64,000 nucleotides of DNA, taken from positions 1-64,000 of the IMG/VR virus record IMGVR_UViG_3300028392_000036, one strand, 5' to 3'. Both the position numbers and the translations under genes were made by a program. The DNA is from a virus. The notes under the pieces were generated by a model, which saw only the letters and a list, made by a program, of their open reading frames with translations, was not told the DNA's origin and did not search any database. Every line of letters starts with the position of its first letter. Position 1 is the first letter of the stretch. This document shows, piece after piece, positions 4,652 through 45,867 of the stretch.

Positions 4652-5791
4652 ATGTCCAATTTCTTTTGTGCCGCACCCTGGCGCGGCCTACACATCAATC
4701 CACAAGGCAATGTTAAAACATGTTGTGCTGGCAACCCTAATATGCTGGGCAATCTCAACACAAACACAATAGAGGAAATCTTAAACAACGATCTCATGAC
4801 CGAGATACGTGCTAGTTTGGCACAAGGTCGACCACACAAGTATTGTAGCAATTGTGTGCAAGCTGAACGTTTTGGTGCAGATTCTGAACGTGCCTGGCAC
4901 AACAATGTAAACCCCAACTTTGATTATGCTGCCGCAGGTGATCAATATCATTATCCTGTAATTGTAGATGTGAGATGGAATACAACTTGTAATCTAAGTT
5001 GTAACTACTGTGGGCCCAGCTGTTCAAGCAAGTGGGCCAGCCTCGAAGGCGTGCCATTCCGGTCAGGCACAAGACCTTATTACGAACAAGTGTGCGACTT
5101 TATTGAACAACATTACGAGCACGTATACGAAGTAGCACTAGTTGGAGGCGAACCGTTGCTGTTGCCCGAGAATGAACGTTTGTTGGATGTTATACCAGAA
5201 ACTGCTATTGTGACACTAATCACAAACATGAGTGTGGATCTAGAAAAGAACCGAATATTTCAAAAACTTACCAAACGAAAAAAAGTAGGTTGGTCGATGA
5301 GTTTTGACAACATTGGTGATAGACTAGAATATGTACGACACGGTGCAGACTGGAATTTATTACAGCAAAACTTACAAACGGTCAAAGAACTCATGCGCAA
5401 TAACGGGCACTGGGGAGGAATACACGCGGTGTACAACATTTATAGCGCCACACGTCTTTGTGAGTTTAGACAGTTTGCTGAAGATACTGGGACCACAGTG
5501 CTGTGGCAGAACTTGTTTCAGCCCGACTATCTTGACCCGTTCCTGCATGGCCCTAGAGTAGCTAAATTGGCCAGCGAAGAGATCAATCGATTCTATGCTA
5601 TGGGTATTGCCACACCTGCCGAACGTCAATTCTTTGATCAGGCATTGGAAAAATATAGTCAATCGAGTCTAGCAACGTTTAGTCCTAGACTACGTCAAAG
5701 ATTTCGTGAACACATCCAAAACAACGAAAAATTATATCATCCAGACAAGGCAGGTGAGTTTGCAAGGTTATGGCCGGAGTTGAACATATGA
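4652..5791 (+). CDS. Twitch-domain radical SAM protein
   Basis: 379 aa. The N-terminus carries a SPASM/twitch-like Cys motif (FCAAPW...KTCCAG, C6, C24, C25, plus CSNC at 65-68). It is followed by the radical SAM cluster motif CNLSCNYC (C113, C117, C120) that binds a 4Fe-4S cluster and S-adenosylmethionine. A GGEPLL segment, typical of the SAM-binding GGE motif, follows about residue 166. This order, auxiliary Cys domain before the radical SAM core, matches the twitch-type radical SAM proteins known from bacteria and phages; substrates are generally unknown. Its stop overlaps the terminase start (ATGA). It is one of four radical SAM genes in this window and has the same architecture as 43890-45170. 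Confidence 0.85.
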   Translation: MSNFFCAAPWRGLHINPQGNVKTCCAGNPNMLGNLNTNTIEEILNNDLMTEIRASLAQGRPHKYCSNCVQAERFGADSERAWHNNVNPNFDYAAAGDQYHYPVIVDVRWNTTCNLSCNYCGPSCSSKWASLEGVPFRSGTRPYYEQVCDFIEQHYEHVYEVALVGGEPLLLPENERLLDVIPETAIVTLITNMSVDLEKNRIFQKLTKRKKVGWSMSFDNIGDRLEYVRHGADWNLLQQNLQTVKELMRNNGHWGGIHAVYNIYSATRLCEFRQFAEDTGTTVLWQNLFQPDYLDPFLHGPRVAKLASEEINRFYAMGIATPAERQFFDQALEKYSQSSLATFSPRLRQRFREHIQNNEKLYHPDKAGEFARLWPELNI

Positions 5792-21670: not shown

Positions 21671-21717
21671 CTAGTACTAGAGTAGTACTTGACCAATAAT
21701 TCCCTTTTTGCTATAAT
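21671..21717 (+). promoter_or_regulatory. Sigma70-type promoter P1 with CTAGTACTAG palindrome
   Basis: TTGACC (21689-21694), 17-base spacer, TATAAT (21712-21717). A perfect ten-base palindrome CTAGTACTAG lies at 21671-21680, and TAGTACTTGACC abuts the -35. It drives the small gene at 21747. Confidence 0.8.
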
Positions 21718-33217: not shown

Positions 33218-33730
33218 ATGATGAATCAGTCTGCATTGGATAATGCTGTGTGTCTTACGCAAGATCTGTATCATGTGCATGATTTATTAAATGAACACAC
33301 ACTCGCAACAATTCTGCAACAACTAGAATTGCAAACACACTGGCAATCGGTGTTGATGCAAGAAAACAAGCCTAGGAAGTCACTGTCATGGATTGACAAT
33401 GGATTGCTGGATCAGATATGGTGCATGCTTGACAAGTTAGATTATTCAAGATTTGGATTAAAATTTACACATGTGTCGTTGTGGAAAGATCAACATCCGT
33501 ATTTCATTGGACAACATGTTGACAACGATCAAGTGTCGGCAGCCATGCAAATTTACCTCAATTCGGGACTAGCTGAATTAGGCACTTGGTTTGAAGGTAT
33601 ACCAATTCCTTTTGTTCCAAACTCCGGGTATATCATGCACAATCGAAACAAATTAAAACATGGCATGAAGCATGCTGTACCACCAGGATTCGTTCGATAC
33701 AGTTTGTACGCATTATTTGACTATGTATAA
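33218..33730 (+). CDS. 2-oxoglutarate/Fe(II)-dependent oxygenase-like protein
   Basis: 170 aa. The facial triad is likely H100-x-D102 (FIGQHVDND) and a distal His (H148 in LKHGMKH), with R160 in VRYSLYALF as the 2-oxoglutarate anchor; AAMQIYLNS between them matches the double-stranded beta-helix of prolyl-hydroxylase-like enzymes. It would hydroxylate a protein or small molecule with Fe(II), O2 and 2-oxoglutarate. It overlaps the following radical SAM gene by eight bases, so the two iron-dependent enzymes are co-translated. Confidence 0.68.
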   Translation: MMNQSALDNAVCLTQDLYHVHDLLNEHTLATILQQLELQTHWQSVLMQENKPRKSLSWIDNGLLDQIWCMLDKLDYSRFGLKFTHVSLWKDQHPYFIGQHVDNDQVSAAMQIYLNSGLAELGTWFEGIPIPFVPNSGYIMHNRNKLKHGMKHAVPPGFVRYSLYALFDYV

Positions 33731-34751
33731 TATCTCAGACATTCGTGATGTACACTTAGAAATATCTAGTTTATGCAATGCCGCCTGTCCATTGTGTCCT
33801 AGAAACTTTTACAGTTATCCTTACAACGATGGATACATTGAACACAACATGACGTTGGCAGAAGCAAAACAAATATTTGCCCCGGCCTTTTTACAACAAA
33901 TTAACACAATAAACATCAACGGAAATTTTGGAGATGCAGTAATGAATCCTGAAACTGTTGATATTGTTGAATATTTTAAAAAAGCAAATCCTGATATCAC
34001 AATCATAATGAGTACCAATGGTGGTGCTCGAGACACAACGTACTGGCAACAATTGGCTGTGTTAGGAGTCCAAGTTGATTTTTGCCTGGATGGTCTTGAA
34101 GACACACACAGCCTGTACAGACAAAACACGATCTACGGCACAGTGATCAAAAATGCCAAGGCATTTATTGCAGCCGGCGGCTTGGCTGTCTGGAAAATGA
34201 TTCGGTTTGATCACAACGCTCATCAAATTGATCAGGCTCGTTTGCTGAGCAAGCAAATGGGTTTTGCAGATTTTAAGATTCATGACCACGGTCGTGATCA
34301 GGCACCGGTATTTGATTTGAACCAACAAGTAAAACATACTATTGGTAAACCACAACAAACTGAATTTTCAATATTGTGGAAGTCAAGAACACAAGATGAA
34401 GTTTTGCTTGAAGATGTGGTTGGTCAGCGCACGCCAGCACCGATCAAGTGCAAGGTTGTGTCAAGGAAATCTTTGTATGTGTCCAGCACTGGCGATGTTT
34501 ACCCTTGCTGTTGGCTAGGATTCAATCCAAAAAATTATGGACATGGTAATTACCATCAAGCGGCCAATGCACAGTTCAAACACTTTGTGGTCGAAAACAA
34601 TGCACTTGACCATGATCTTGAGCATTGTATTCAGTGGTTCAACAACATAGAGCAAAGTTGGCACAAGCCCAGTTTTGAATCAGGACGACTGATTATCTGC
34701 AATGACGTCTGTGGCGTTAAGACGCAACACCTTCAATCACAGCAAAAGTGA
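33723..34751 (+). CDS. Radical SAM/SPASM enzyme
   Basis: 342 aa from the ATG at 33723; the start is set by overlap with the oxygenase gene and by the strand that immediately follows. Radical SAM motif CNAACPLC (C18, C22, C25). The C-terminal SPASM-type auxiliary cluster region contains KCKVVSRKSLYVSSTGDVYPCCW and later single Cys residues. SPASM enzymes usually modify peptides or proteins. It is closely similar in layout to 42528-43586. The 3' end overlaps the convergent tail gene by 35 bases. Confidence 0.85.
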   Translation: MYNISDIRDVHLEISSLCNAACPLCPRNFYSYPYNDGYIEHNMTLAEAKQIFAPAFLQQINTININGNFGDAVMNPETVDIVEYFKKANPDITIIMSTNGGARDTTYWQQLAVLGVQVDFCLDGLEDTHSLYRQNTIYGTVIKNAKAFIAAGGLAVWKMIRFDHNAHQIDQARLLSKQMGFADFKIHDHGRDQAPVFDLNQQVKHTIGKPQQTEFSILWKSRTQDEVLLEDVVGQRTPAPIKCKVVSRKSLYVSSTGDVYPCCWLGFNPKNYGHGNYHQAANAQFKHFVVENNALDHDLEHCIQWFNNIEQSWHKPSFESGRLIICNDVCGVKTQHLQSQQK

Positions 34752-41642: not shown

Positions 41643-41683
41643 GTCAACCAAAGGTTGACATAAAACGTTAAATATAGTATACT
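41643..41683 (+). promoter_or_regulatory. Sigma70-type promoter P7 with operator-like palindrome
   Basis: TTGACA (41655-41660), 17-base spacer, TATACT (41678-41683). A perfect inverted repeat GTCAACC-AAA-GGTTGAC (41643-41659) overlaps the -35, as an operator would. A TAGGAGGT ribosome-binding site follows at 41691-41698. It heads the Fe-S/radical SAM operon. Confidence 0.75.
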
Positions 41684-41702
41684 ACCACAATAGGAGGTCT
41701 GT

Positions 41703-42023
41703 ATGAAACAACTCATCGCTTTGTTCTTTTTAACTGTGTCTGTGTCAGCAATGGCACAACCAGGATTCAGATACTATCATCATCATCACGGATACTATCC
41801 AGGACCCAATTACGGCTGGGCGGCTCCTACCATCATCGGTGGTGTAATTGGTTATGAAATCGCTCGCAACCAACAGCCAGTGATCGTACAACAACCGGTA
41901 ATAGTTCAACCTACCACTGTACCTCCCACAGTTTACTATGGTCAGACACAAACATGTTCTGAATGGATAGAAGTACAACAACCAGATGGAACCATCAATA
42001 GAACAAGGACTTGCAGACAATGA
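41703..42023 (+). CDS. Secreted His/Tyr-rich protein with glycine-zipper-like segment
   Basis: 106 aa. A signal peptide (about residues 1-18, cleavage after AMA) is followed by a Tyr/His cluster (RYYHHHHGYYPGPNYGW) that could bind metal. A short hydrophobic GGVIGYEIA segment, a Val/Gln/Pro repeat and a C-terminal CSEWIEVQQPDGTINRTRTC pair complete it. This resembles bacterial small envelope proteins rather than phage virion proteins. It is first in the operon that encodes IscU, IscA and two radical SAM enzymes. Metal capture in the periplasm is a hypothesis. Confidence 0.65.
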   Translation: MKQLIALFFLTVSVSAMAQPGFRYYHHHHGYYPGPNYGWAAPTIIGGVIGYEIARNQQPVIVQQPVIVQPTTVPPTVYYGQTQTCSEWIEVQQPDGTINRTRTCRQ

Positions 42024-42151
42024 AACTACGACAGTTAAGACAAAAATTATACAGTGCTATCTTTGCACACGATAGCAAAAAAGAAAAGAAAGTTTGGTTC
42101 AAGATCCTTAAAAAATCTACCAAACACAAACACACTGAGGATATACGATAA
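42020..42151 (+). CDS. Small basic peptide, 43 aa
   Basis: Starts by ATGA overlap with the secreted-protein stop and ends in TAATG overlap with iscU, so it is fully embedded in the operon. About 40% of the residues are Lys, Arg or His, forming one or two basic helices. Function unknown; it could be a nucleic-acid-binding peptide or a substrate of the neighbouring radical SAM enzymes. Confidence 0.55.
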   Translation: MKLRQLRQKLYSAIFAHDSKKEKKVWFKILKKSTKHKHTEDIR

Positions 42152-42531
42152 TGGCCTATTCAGAAAAAGTAATCGATCATTATGAAAATCCCCGAAATGT
42201 GGGCAGTTTTAGCACTACTGACGATACCGTTGGCACTGGTATGGTTGGTGCACCTGCTTGCGGAGATGTTATGAAGTTACAGATAAAAGTAACAGATGGA
42301 ATTATTACAGATGCAAAATTCAAAACATACGGGTGCGGTTCCGCCATCGCGAGCTCAAGTCTCGTTACAGAATGGGTCAAAGGTCGAACACTTGAGGAAG
42401 CAGGATCCATACGAAATAGCGAAATTGCTGAAGAGCTTGCTCTCCCCCCAGTCAAAATCCACTGCTCCATTCTTGCCGAAGACGCCATCAAAGCCGCGGT
42501 AGAGGACTATCGCAAAAAGCATGTTCAATGA
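42151..42531 (+). CDS. iscU: IscU-type iron-sulfur cluster scaffold
   Basis: 126 aa, the normal IscU length. All cluster ligands are present: C37 with D39 (APACGD), C62 (YGCGSA) and H104-C105 (KIHCS). The LPPVK motif (98-102), which binds the HscA chaperone, is intact, so it should work with host IscS and HscA/HscB. It assembles 2Fe-2S clusters from Cys-derived sulfur and iron. Overlaps both neighbours. No phage IscS is present in the window, so host sulfur donation is expected. Confidence 0.93.
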   Translation: MAYSEKVIDHYENPRNVGSFSTTDDTVGTGMVGAPACGDVMKLQIKVTDGIITDAKFKTYGCGSAIASSSLVTEWVKGRTLEEAGSIRNSEIAEELALPPVKIHCSILAEDAIKAAVEDYRKKHVQ

Positions 42532-43586
42532 ATCTGTCAGATATTCAGACTTTAACGTTTGAACCTTCTTCCTACTGCAATGCACAGTGTCCGCATTGCC
42601 CTAGATTTAACATAACCAATCATGATGTTTTTGAATCCACAGGAATCCTACATCCTAATTTAAAACTTTTAAATTTAGATTTTTCAACGATAATACCAAA
42701 TTTGCAACTTGACCAAATGACCTCGTTGACAAAGATCATAATTGAAGGTGACAAAGGGGATCCATTAATGAATCCCGACATAGATATTCTATTAGACGCA
42801 TTTGCATCAATGAAAGTTGCGCCAACTGTGGTGCTTACCACCAATGGTAGTATTCGTAATGCAAGTTGGTGGCAAAATCTTGCTAAAAAATATCCTTTTT
42901 TAATAGTACAATTTAGTATAGATGGTCTGGCTGATACAAATCATTTGTATCGCCTGGGATTGAACTATAAGACTATTATAAAAAATCTTTCAACATTTAC
43001 TGAATCTGGTGGACGTGCAATTTGGAAAATGATTGTATTCAAACATAATCAACATCAGACAAAGGAAGTTGAGAATCAATCCAGACAACTGGGTTGTGAA
43101 AAAATTGTTTATATAAGATGTCAGATCGAGAGATTTAAAGGATTGGCGCAATGGCCAGTTATATATAACAATCAAACTCATTATATCTCCCCACCTGATA
43201 TTAATATTCCGTCGTCAGTGACATTTAAAAATACACCAAGTAAAACAATAAAAATCAATAAAGTATTAGATAAAAATTGCCCCTGGGGCAAAAATGGCCA
43301 TGTATATATTGGGTATCAAGGGCATGTGCTACCTTGTTGTATGATGCATTTTGATACTGAATTAAATTACGTAGGACAAACTTATTTAGAAAATTTATCT
43401 CAGGGTTTTGACAATCAGAATTTGCTATTAAATAGCATGGAAAAAATATTAAATAATCCATTGTTCAATGGTTCACTGGAGCAAAGTCTCCAACTTGGAA
43501 AATGGCATAGCACCTGTGTTCAGAATTGTAAACAACAAATTCTAACAAATATTTCAAATCGTAAATCCTATGATATCGTTCACTGA
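42528..43586 (+). CDS. Radical SAM/SPASM enzyme between iscU and iscA
   Basis: 352 aa. Radical SAM motif CNAQCPHC (C17, C21, C24). The SPASM-type region has C251 (NCPWGKNGHVYIGY), C270-C271 (LPCCMMHF) and a late C-x-x-x-C (WHSTCVQNC). EGDKGDPLMNP sits where the GGE-type SAM motif lies. Strongly AT-rich compared with iscU, suggesting a separate origin. It overlaps iscU by four bases and the iscA-like gene by 17. The substrate is unknown; peptide or protein modification is the usual role for SPASM enzymes. Confidence 0.88.
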   Translation: MNLSDIQTLTFEPSSYCNAQCPHCPRFNITNHDVFESTGILHPNLKLLNLDFSTIIPNLQLDQMTSLTKIIIEGDKGDPLMNPDIDILLDAFASMKVAPTVVLTTNGSIRNASWWQNLAKKYPFLIVQFSIDGLADTNHLYRLGLNYKTIIKNLSTFTESGGRAIWKMIVFKHNQHQTKEVENQSRQLGCEKIVYIRCQIERFKGLAQWPVIYNNQTHYISPPDINIPSSVTFKNTPSKTIKINKVLDKNCPWGKNGHVYIGYQGHVLPCCMMHFDTELNYVGQTYLENLSQGFDNQNLLLNSMEKILNNPLFNGSLEQSLQLGKWHSTCVQNCKQQILTNISNRKSYDIVH

Positions 43587-43893
43587 CGCGGCTCGAACAA
43601 AAATACAAAAATTAGTCACAGCCAAAAACTATGCTGGTATTCGTCTTGGCGTAAAAACTACCGGTTGCTCGGGACTTGCTTATGTGTTAGAATACGTTAA
43701 AGAATACAAGTCTGAACCGTATGTTACCAACTATGCACAAAATGATTTTGTAGTACTAGTAAATCATAAAGACGACATCTATCTTAAAAATATGACAGTA
43801 GACTATGTGCGTCAAGGACTAAACGAAGGTTTTGAATTTAGCAATCCTAATGAACGTGACCGATGTGGTTGCGGAGAATCATTTAGAGTATGA
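43570..43893 (+). CDS. iscA: IscA-type iron-sulfur carrier
   Basis: 107 aa, the typical A-type carrier length. The three ligands are C33 (TTGCSG), C99 and C101 (RCGCGESF). The DYVRQGLNEGFEFSNPN segment matches the HesB/IscA family. It carries Fe-S clusters from the scaffold to target apoproteins. Its position between two radical SAM genes, with start/stop overlaps on both sides, points to cluster delivery to those enzymes. It could equally be called ErpA- or SufA-like; the family call is secure, the subtype is not. Confidence 0.92.
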   Translation: MISFTDAARTKIQKLVTAKNYAGIRLGVKTTGCSGLAYVLEYVKEYKSEPYVTNYAQNDFVVLVNHKDDIYLKNMTVDYVRQGLNEGFEFSNPNERDRCGCGESFRV

Positions 43894-45170
43894 CCACCCA
43901 AACAATAGAATGGATTAAAAATAATCCTGCATTCTGCACGGCACCTTACGCTGTTTATGATTTTAGATATTATAATGATAAATGTAAAATAACAACCTGC
44001 TGTAACTTAGACTTATCCAGCACCAACAATACTTTGGATCTTGATTTTATAGAAAAGGTCAAGCAAGATATGGCACAGGATGTGGTACCCAACTCTTGTT
44101 GGAGGTGTACATCAGAAGAACAAAACCAAGCGCAAAGTGAGCGTGTGAAATATTTAATAGGACACACGGTTGCTGACTTAGAACAGTTTAAGCAAAATAA
44201 AAAAACAAATGAATTTCAAATTGGTATGAAATTCAGCAACCTATGTAATCTGGCTTGCCGTAGTTGTAATGAAACTGACAGCAGTTTATGGTCAAAGTTA
44301 ATGACTCGTCCCACCAGTCCGGAATATGAAATTGATATTTCGTCTGACGAGATTCTTTGGGACACAATAACTCGTATGATTCGGGCCAAGCATTCAGAAA
44401 CTGACAATTTTATTGTACACCCAATTGGTGGTGAAACAATGATTCAGCCAGGGTTTGCAAAATTAGTTGATTGGCTTATTACAGAAAATCTAGCCAGCAC
44501 AACCACTTTACGTATTACTACTAGTTTGGTTCCTAACATTGCTGACAAGTTTTTGGAAAAGTTTACGTTATTTCAACGTGTACAATTTTTGTCAAGCATA
44601 GATAGCGTGGGTGAAAATTATCATTATGTTCGCTGGCCGGCCCGATTTAACAAAATACAAGATAACCTAAAAACATTCAAAACTTTATCGTCGCAATACC
44701 CTAACAAATTTTCGCTAAGTGTTAGTCCAGTATTTTCATTAAACAATATCTTTTACGCTGTGGACTTCTTGGACTGGTGGGAAAACTGGGCAGATCAAAC
44801 ACAAACTGATTTATGGTTATCTAATATACATTTGTATAATCCAGAAATGTTAATGGTAGAAAGTTTACCATTTGAATACCGCCTGCAATTAACGGTATTG
44901 TTAGACCAGTGTGTTGATCACAATGTTTTTAAAAAATATAAACAAACTGATGTGCTCAGGGGATATTTTTCTGCCATGCAAGCCACAACACAAAACAACC
45001 CAACAGATACACAAACATTGTTCACACAGTATTTAGAATTCACTGCCGACTACGACAACCGTACAAATACCAACAGTTATCAATTAAATTCAAAACTATT
45101 TGACTTACTATCTAGCACACACCAAAATATATACAACTCTCACTTGAAATATGTACAATCCAAAATTTGA
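43890..45170 (+). CDS. Twitch-domain radical SAM protein, second copy
   Basis: 426 aa. N-terminal auxiliary Cys motif (AFCTAPY, KITTCCN, SCWRC: C16, C37, C38, C70, C73) comes before the radical SAM motif CNLACRSC (C119, C123, C126), the same order as in 4652-5791. A GGETMI segment is the SAM-binding GGE motif. AT-rich. Starts by ATGA overlap with iscA and overlaps the nuclease gene by 20 bases. Together with its neighbours this makes an Fe-S supply plus radical-chemistry operon. Confidence 0.87.
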   Translation: MTTQTIEWIKNNPAFCTAPYAVYDFRYYNDKCKITTCCNLDLSSTNNTLDLDFIEKVKQDMAQDVVPNSCWRCTSEEQNQAQSERVKYLIGHTVADLEQFKQNKKTNEFQIGMKFSNLCNLACRSCNETDSSLWSKLMTRPTSPEYEIDISSDEILWDTITRMIRAKHSETDNFIVHPIGGETMIQPGFAKLVDWLITENLASTTTLRITTSLVPNIADKFLEKFTLFQRVQFLSSIDSVGENYHYVRWPARFNKIQDNLKTFKTLSSQYPNKFSLSVSPVFSLNNIFYAVDFLDWWENWADQTQTDLWLSNIHLYNPEMLMVESLPFEYRLQLTVLLDQCVDHNVFKKYKQTDVLRGYFSAMQATTQNNPTDTQTLFTQYLEFTADYDNRTNTNSYQLNSKLFDLLSSTHQNIYNSHLKYVQSKI

Positions 45171-45867
45171 TTATCAACCAATTCCTCGCGTGACCATAGA
45201 GGGCAAGCGTTACTACGCCACCCCAGATGGCAACAACTTACCTAGTGTGACCACGATCCTTGACAAGACCAAACCACCAGAAAAAGTTGAAGCACTGAAT
45301 CAATGGCGTCGTCGTGTGGGCGCAGAAAAAGCACAACAGATCACCACTGAAGCCGCCAATCGCGGCACACGTATGCACACCTATCTTGAACACTATGTCA
45401 AAACAGGCGAACGAAAAGAACGTGGATCAAATCCCTTCTCTTGGCCCAGTCACGCAATGGCGGATGTGGTAATTGATCAAGGACTAAAGAATGTAGGTGA
45501 ATTTTGGGGAATTGAAGTTCCATTGTATTTTCCTAGTGTGTATGCAGGCACAACAGACGGCGCGGGCATACATTTAAATGAAGAAGCCATACTAGACTAC
45601 AAGCAAACCAACCGGCCCAAAAAGCGTGAATGGATTGATGATTACTTTGTACAACTATGTGCCTATGCAGAAGCACATAATGAATTGCACGGTACACGAA
45701 TACGAAAAGGCGTAATTTTGATGTGTGTTAAACCGGACTTAGACGAACAACACAACATCATTGGAAAGCCCCAATACCAGGAATTTGTGCTGGAAGGCCA
45801 AGAATACGACCGTTATCGGGACTTATGGTGGAAAAAGGTCGAACAGTACTACTTGCTAAATATGTAA
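45151..45867 (+). CDS. PD-(D/E)XK (RecB-like) exonuclease
   Basis: 238 aa. Motifs: RGTRMHTYLEHY (about residues 72-83), GTTDGAG (about 131-137, metal-binding Asp) and AILDYKQTNRPK (about 147-158, the E/D-x-K core), then DDYFVQLCAYA (the QxxxY motif). This is the order of RecB/Cas4-type nucleases found in T4-like marine phages. It lacks the Cas4 Cys cluster, so it probably has no Fe-S centre of its own. Likely a DNA exonuclease in recombination or host DNA breakdown. Confidence 0.82.
   Translation: MYNPKFDYQPIPRVTIEGKRYYATPDGNNLPSVTTILDKTKPPEKVEALNQWRRRVGAEKAQQITTEAANRGTRMHTYLEHYVKTGERKERGSNPFSWPSHAMADVVIDQGLKNVGEFWGIEVPLYFPSVYAGTTDGAGIHLNEEAILDYKQTNRPKKREWIDDYFVQLCAYAEAHNELHGTRIRKGVILMCVKPDLDEQHNIIGKPQYQEFVLEGQEYDRYRDLWWKKVEQYYLLNM

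Follow-up and report, generated by a model that had tools for sequence, protein, structure and literature searches.

A conserved phage IscU-IscA module with radical SAM genes at its junctions: a candidate iron-sulfur cluster supply unit

The stretch of DNA analyzed in the current study (the window) comprises positions 1-64,000 of a 142,901-base virus record (IMGVR_UViG_3300028392_000036; the whole record is designated G000). Seven genes, located at 41703-45867 and overlapping at each junction (by 4, 1, 4, 17, 4 and 20 bp), encode a His-rich protein, a 43-aa peptide, the iron-sulfur (Fe-S) scaffold IscU, a radical S-adenosylmethionine (radical SAM) enzyme (P0004), an IscA-like carrier, a second radical SAM enzyme (P0006) and an exonuclease, in this order (Table 1). 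An initial annotation had proposed these gene places and overlaps and had described scaffold, carrier and radical SAM genes as one unit with its own promoter; both descriptions were borne out. Comparison with related viral loci showed that IscU, IscA and the exonuclease form a constant module, and that the two junctions between them serve as slots, with a marked excess of radical SAM genes.

Table 1. Features of the module locus, in window coordinates
Feature	Position	Strand	Remarks
Perfect palindrome GTCAACC-AAA-GGTTGAC, operator-like	41643..41659	.	Overlaps -35 box
Sigma-70-like promoter TTGACA-17-TATACT	41655..41683	+	11/12 consensus, best in region
Secreted His-rich small protein (predicted)	41703..42023	+	Signal peptide judged by eye
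43-aa basic peptide	42020..42151	+	Homologues and selection
IscU, Fe-S scaffold	42151..42531	+	C37, D39, C62, H104, C105, LPPVK
P0004, radical SAM enzyme, SPASM/twitch type	42528..43586	+	Cargo of slot IscU|IscA; one C-terminal auxiliary-cluster domain
IscA-like A-type Fe-S carrier	43570..43893	+	C33, C99, C101
P0006, twitch-domain radical SAM enzyme	43890..45170	+	Cargo of slot IscA|exonuclease; NF033640
PD-(D/E)XK exonuclease, backbone gene	45151..45867	+	phrog_298

The IscU protein scored above the cut-off of the NCBIfam equivalog TIGR01999 (220.2 vs 192.4 bits). Residues C37, D39, H104 and C105 and the LPPVK motif were invariant in 159 different viral IscUs, and C62 was kept in all but one of them, whose alignment row has a gap there. 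The IscA protein exceeded the cut-off of the A-type subfamily TIGR00049 (93.9 vs 58.8 bits) and fell below that of the narrower IscA equivalog TIGR02011 (105.5 vs 150.6 bits); by its profile matches it is an IscA-like A-type carrier. All three of its cysteines were invariant in 154 viral homologues, so that the intact ligands and LPPVK motif noted in the initial annotation proved to be conserved features of the viral proteins. The median ratio of nonsynonymous to synonymous substitution rates (dN/dS) was 0.07 for IscU and 0.13 for IscA. Ligand conservation together with dN/dS values near 0.1 suggests that the pair works as scaffold and carrier.

Searches with IscU, IscA, P0004, P0006 and the exonuclease yielded about 260 viral loci; after merging of near-identical ones, 127 non-redundant loci had the constant order IscU-IscA-exonuclease. 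The carriers of this module are uncultured phages, mostly from lake water. Cargo occupied the IscU|IscA slot in 40 loci and the IscA|exonuclease slot in 52; both slots were filled in 19 loci, at least one in 73, and 54 loci had no cargo. The radical SAM cargo belonged to four families (twitch; B12-binding plus radical SAM; SPASM/twitch; MoaA-like), and seven family-slot combinations were observed among them, indicating several independent insertions. Other cargo comprised dCMP deaminase, 2-oxoglutarate (2OG) oxygenase, HNH proteins, GDSW proteins, a P-loop kinase and unassigned open reading frames (ORFs), the HNH and GDSW proteins being named from motifs seen by eye.

Radical SAM genes made up 50 of the 115 slot ORFs with a length of at least 90 aa, compared with 25 of 1258 flank ORFs (about 2%). 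The corresponding Fisher P value (1.7e-40) was not used as a probability, because the loci are related and the hidden Markov models (HMMs) that detected slot genes were seeded from such genes. For the latter reason the genome-wide density of Pfam PF04055 matches (17 records of 74-374 kb, summed by hand) was taken as the fairer yardstick. Across the genomes this density was one radical SAM gene per 21 kb, and in slot DNA there was one every 2.3 kb, an approximately 9-fold enrichment; 50 were found in slot DNA where 5.5 would be expected. Both slots were filled with radical SAM genes in 10 loci, against about 4.5 expected (P 0.003, uncorrected for kinship).

Two further observations concern the cargo. 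The second commonest cargo cluster (L099:3143-4285 and 13 others) consists of proteins of about 360-380 aa without a Pfam match. In six loci (L022, L023, L025, L027, L162 and L254) the IscU|IscA slot holds radical SAM enzymes of ~570-590 aa; a B12-binding domain was found in the L254 enzyme, the one scanned, and L025 carries a tandem pair.

In P0004 a CX3CX2C motif (C17, C21, C24) and C251, C270, C271, C330 and C334 were conserved in relatives. The initial label of radical SAM/SPASM enzyme holds in its first part; no seven-Cys SPASM motif is present, and the Pfam SPASM score lay just below the cut-off (21.2 vs 21.5 bits). Five C-terminal cysteines without that motif make one auxiliary cluster more likely, and SPASM/twitch type is the better description. 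P0006 exceeded the NF033640 cut-off (180.5 vs 170 bits), and its auxiliary cysteines C16, C37, C70 and C73 and CX3CX2C cysteines C119, C123 and C126 were invariant in 18 sequences. Both proteins fell below the Pfam PF04055 gathering cut-off. AlphaFold2 models reached mean predicted local distance difference test (pLDDT) values of 79.9 for P0004 and 89.4 for P0006, and Foldseek matched the two to radical SAM-fold structures (SkfB, anSME, MoaA and sactipeptide maturases). The top matches of P0004 were SkfB, MoaA and anSME; beyond the radical SAM core, P0006 matched known structures weakly. By the CX3CX2C motif and the modelled fold, P0004 and P0006 are members of the radical SAM superfamily.

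The exact arrangement of the window was found only in L086 and L087, which are 99.98% identical to it over 8.6 and 9.5 kb and therefore represent the same phage in two other samples. In the next relative, L166 (P0004 72% identical), the order is IscU, SPASM, another gene, IscA and exonuclease, with no twitch gene, while L157 and L244-L254 lack SPASM and have IscU, IscA, twitch (62-75%) and exonuclease. A version of the order with more diverged radical SAM genes (SPASM 27-31%, twitch 36-37%) occurs in L015, L220, L222, L223 and L232; three of these (L222, L223 and L232) show His-rich protein, IscU, SPASM (30-31%), IscA (58%), twitch (37%) and exonuclease (83%). The gene order on which the initial annotation placed weight does recur in relatives, in diverged form and as one among many slot fillings.

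The position of the module is fixed, between virion genes and the backbone exonuclease. Homologues of the exonuclease were found in 950 phage records. The cultured phages XaC1 (of Xanthomonas), 2.275.O (of Vibrio), PA5oct and Atu_ph07 resemble the window's phage in their helicase (41-49% identical) and differ from it in having no IscU and no or few radical SAM genes. XaC1 and 2.275.O also share the order of helicase, intervening genes (structural and hypothetical) and exonuclease. The simplest reading of this IscU-less synteny is that the module was inserted before the exonuclease in an ancestor of the IscU-bearing group. A coupling of the nuclease to the Fe-S genes was rejected, since it occurs without IscU as a backbone gene and has only two cysteines.

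The promoter and the operator-like palindrome proposed at the head of the unit are both real, the former near consensus and the latter perfect. Comparison of promoter regions showed that CGTTAAATATAGTATACTA was kept in many relatives. The exact palindrome is present as a single copy in the 142.9-kb record, and in many relatives its arms are kept upstream of the module while spacer and flanks differ. Of 110 related modules, 44 have the looser form GTCAAC-n(3-7)-GTTGAC no more than 1.5 kb upstream of IscU, with a total of 48 occurrences in 1.37 Mb of module loci. Since the arms stay constant while the spacer changes, operator-like behaviour is suggested. A host-type operator was not supported: 80 bacterial isc loci gave one chance-like palindrome. 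About 15 promoter-like sites of another kind (TTGACC-AATAATT...-TATAAT; e.g. at 21689, 56528, 98466 and 109012), unlike the module promoter, were also seen in G000 and are perhaps early promoters.

Six radical SAM genes were identified in the window's phage, two in the module (starts 42528 and 43890) and four outside it (4652-5791 and 33672-34751 in the window; 88405-89670 and 127547-128662 in G000). Two of the latter four are of the twitch type and score above the NF033640 cut-off. Relatives with 300-kb genomes have up to about 20 radical SAM genes. Of 24 related records, 21 had IscU; the others are three contigs of 27-88 kb. G000 also encodes ErpA (117167-117487, above the ErpA cut-off), immediately preceded by a superoxide dismutase gene, and the two genes are likewise adjacent in 78 of the 80 related viral ErpA loci. 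Among 20 large records, the window's included, an A-type carrier was found in all, two carrier matches in 13 and a dismutase in 13. The dismutase-ErpA pair of the window's phage spans G000 116574-117487 (L179:12574-13484). In G004 and G005 the dismutase directly precedes IscU-IscA rather than ErpA; G005 (the 82.9-kb contig of L058) has 15 radical SAM matches, all within 36-72 kb, in addition to dismutase-IscU-IscA.

The module resembles the bacterial isc operon (iscRSUA-hscBA-fdx) in having IscU followed by IscA. It differs in that host-type IscR, IscS, HscB, HscA and Fdx gave no significant match in the 142.9-kb record, which is possibly incomplete; members of the IscS family (aminotransferase class V) were likewise not found above cut-off in G000 or in 20 large relatives, whose records may be incomplete as well. 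The nearest bacterial IscUs are 81-87% identical and mostly from Betaproteobacteria, making Burkholderiales-like hosts plausible. The viral IscUs clustered apart from the bacterial ones (2 label changes vs 28.5 in shuffles), in a weakly resolved tree, and a recent capture from present-day hosts was not supported. Two records named Acinetobacter phage MD-2021a (L002 and L003; CAKLQH020000011.1 and CAKLQF020000009.1) contain the complete operon iscRSUA-hscBA-fdx together with mfd, hupB and ppiD; they look like pieces of a bacterial chromosome deposited under a phage name and were excluded.

The two small proteins at the start of the unit are also maintained in relatives. Homologues of the His-rich protein (30-83% identical) are located before IscU and show a median dN/dS of 0.17; no family match above cut-off was obtained for this protein in profile searches. 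The 43-aa peptide has 23 different homologues with a conserved KHKHTE C-terminus and a median dN/dS of about 0.10, and is, judged from sequence, a real gene.

The reading that we somewhat favour from these comparisons is that the unit is a near-core phage Fe-S supply module, relying on host IscS and HscBA and supporting the phage's radical SAM enzymes generally. Because the phage shows no IscS, its IscU would have to draw sulfur for cluster building from the host enzyme, as expected from established iron-sulfur cluster (ISC) biology. The strict LPPVK motif fits the use of host HscA, so that host HscA and HscB may unload IscU, after which IscA would carry the clusters onward. The module would run under its own sigma-70 promoter and dedicated operator, and may keep clusters available throughout infection, with the numerous radical SAM enzymes of these phages as the main users, a role suggested by their enrichment in slots and genomes. 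The two junctions would act as insertion slots favouring radical SAM genes, holding in the window's phage a SPASM/twitch-type enzyme in the first and a twitch enzyme in the second. Such genes are probably favoured because co-expression with the supply genes is of benefit, although direct contact of the enzymes with IscU or IscA would not be required. The slot pattern suggests that phages boost cluster supply for their own many radical enzymes.

Several points weigh against this reading. The slot count of 50 itself rests on slot-seeded HMMs, and kinship of the loci makes raw P values overstate independence, so that the figures give direction and size. The genome comparison that speaks for the reading, with 141 radical SAM matches in 2.96 Mb of IscU-bearing records (~1 per 21 kb) and 13 in 3.51 Mb of eleven IscU-free phages (T4, P-SSM2, HTVC008M, S-PM2, PA5oct, Atu_ph07, Phosso, XaC1, 2.275.O, SCTP-2 and BF; ~1 per 270 kb), is confounded by lineage, habitat and genome size. 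Phage C48C1, with IscU but no adjacent IscA, has a single radical SAM match, and the link between IscU and radical SAM load is therefore not strict. Moreover, 43% of the modules are free of cargo and a slot radical SAM gene was detected in only 38 of 127, which makes the IscU-IscA pair independent of adjacent radical SAM genes; non-radical-SAM cargo also occupies the same two slots. The persistence of the pair without such neighbours in most modules would also be expected if IscU and IscA sustained host Fe-S proteins of respiration and central metabolism, when infection is prolonged or when iron or oxidative stress prevails, with the neighbouring radical SAM enzymes as incidental users. ErpA beside superoxide dismutase likewise points to general Fe-S care. 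A host-directed role of this kind leaves the strong slot enrichment and the abundance of radical SAM genes in IscU-bearing genomes unexplained, however, and we regard it as rather unlikely.

The variety of the cargo (dCMP deaminase, SGNH-like proteins, 2OG oxygenase, HNH, P-loop kinase) could also mean that the junctions are a hot spot taking any gene, radical SAM genes being common in phage gene trade and having no functional link to the pair; the AT-rich composition of the two module genes (33% and 36% GC, compared with 44% for the window) is like that of recently acquired cargo. This explanation is improbable given a slot share about nine times that expected from the whole-genome density of the same group. 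More doubtful again is the proposal of the initial annotation that clusters made on IscU are carried by IscA and handed directly to the two neighbouring enzymes. Tight overlap at each junction, the diverged version of the order in five loci and the excess of doubly filled slots are in its favour, but the exact arrangement was found in one phage only and both radical SAM genes are optional in relatives. Slots without a detected radical SAM gene are the majority (89 of 127 loci, the 54 free of cargo included), dCMP deaminase, HNH and 2OG oxygenase share the slots, only two of the phage's six radical SAM genes belong to the module, and 74 of 77 viral P0004 relatives have no IscU in the flank examined. 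A pathway for ribosomally synthesized and post-translationally modified peptides (RiPPs), in which the 43-aa peptide or the secreted His-rich protein would be the radical SAM substrate, was considered because a small peptide gene lies near a radical SAM gene whose fold resembles the RiPP maturases SkfB, SuiB and EpeE. The peptide occurs in 18 modules without a detected slot radical SAM gene and in only 5 with one, and is missing from 32 that have one; on this co-occurrence it was rejected as a RiPP precursor, and such a pathway is very improbable.

Contrary to the initial statement that phage Fe-S genes are reported singly, the portions consulted of two earlier reports describe them together. 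Nishimura et al. (2017; PMC5332604) found IscU and A-type carriers in marine viruses whose genomes also hold 2-12 radical SAM or other Fe-S genes each, and proposed that viruses use their Fe-S genes for their own Fe-S proteins; gene kinds and proposal agree with those given here. No operon, gene order, slots or promoter are described in those portions, whereas most of the present loci are on freshwater contigs and share a fixed IscU-IscA-exonuclease module. Phages of the HMO-2011 type carry iscU and erpA (PMC9038755), again scaffold plus A-type carrier, with no radical SAM module reported in the part consulted. Relative to the open-licence PubMed Central papers searched, the conserved module, its slots, their radical SAM bias and the dedicated operator-like site are new.

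A wider picture, which we put forward tentatively, is that of a viral Fe-S biogenesis island. In a large group of phages the near-core genes would include superoxide dismutase, a scaffold and two A-type carriers. A dedicated operator would control the scaffold-carrier pair, radical SAM genes would dock at the IscU-IscA junctions, and the phage cluster pathway would mature up to about 20 phage radical enzymes per infected cell. Viral Fe-S genes were known already; the slots give a testable link to radical SAM enzymes, in that phages bearing the kit are unusually rich in these enzymes and the enzyme genes settle beside it. If the supply reading is true, phages would be investing in the relief of a cluster-supply bottleneck, and new phage radical SAM chemistry could be sought in the slots.

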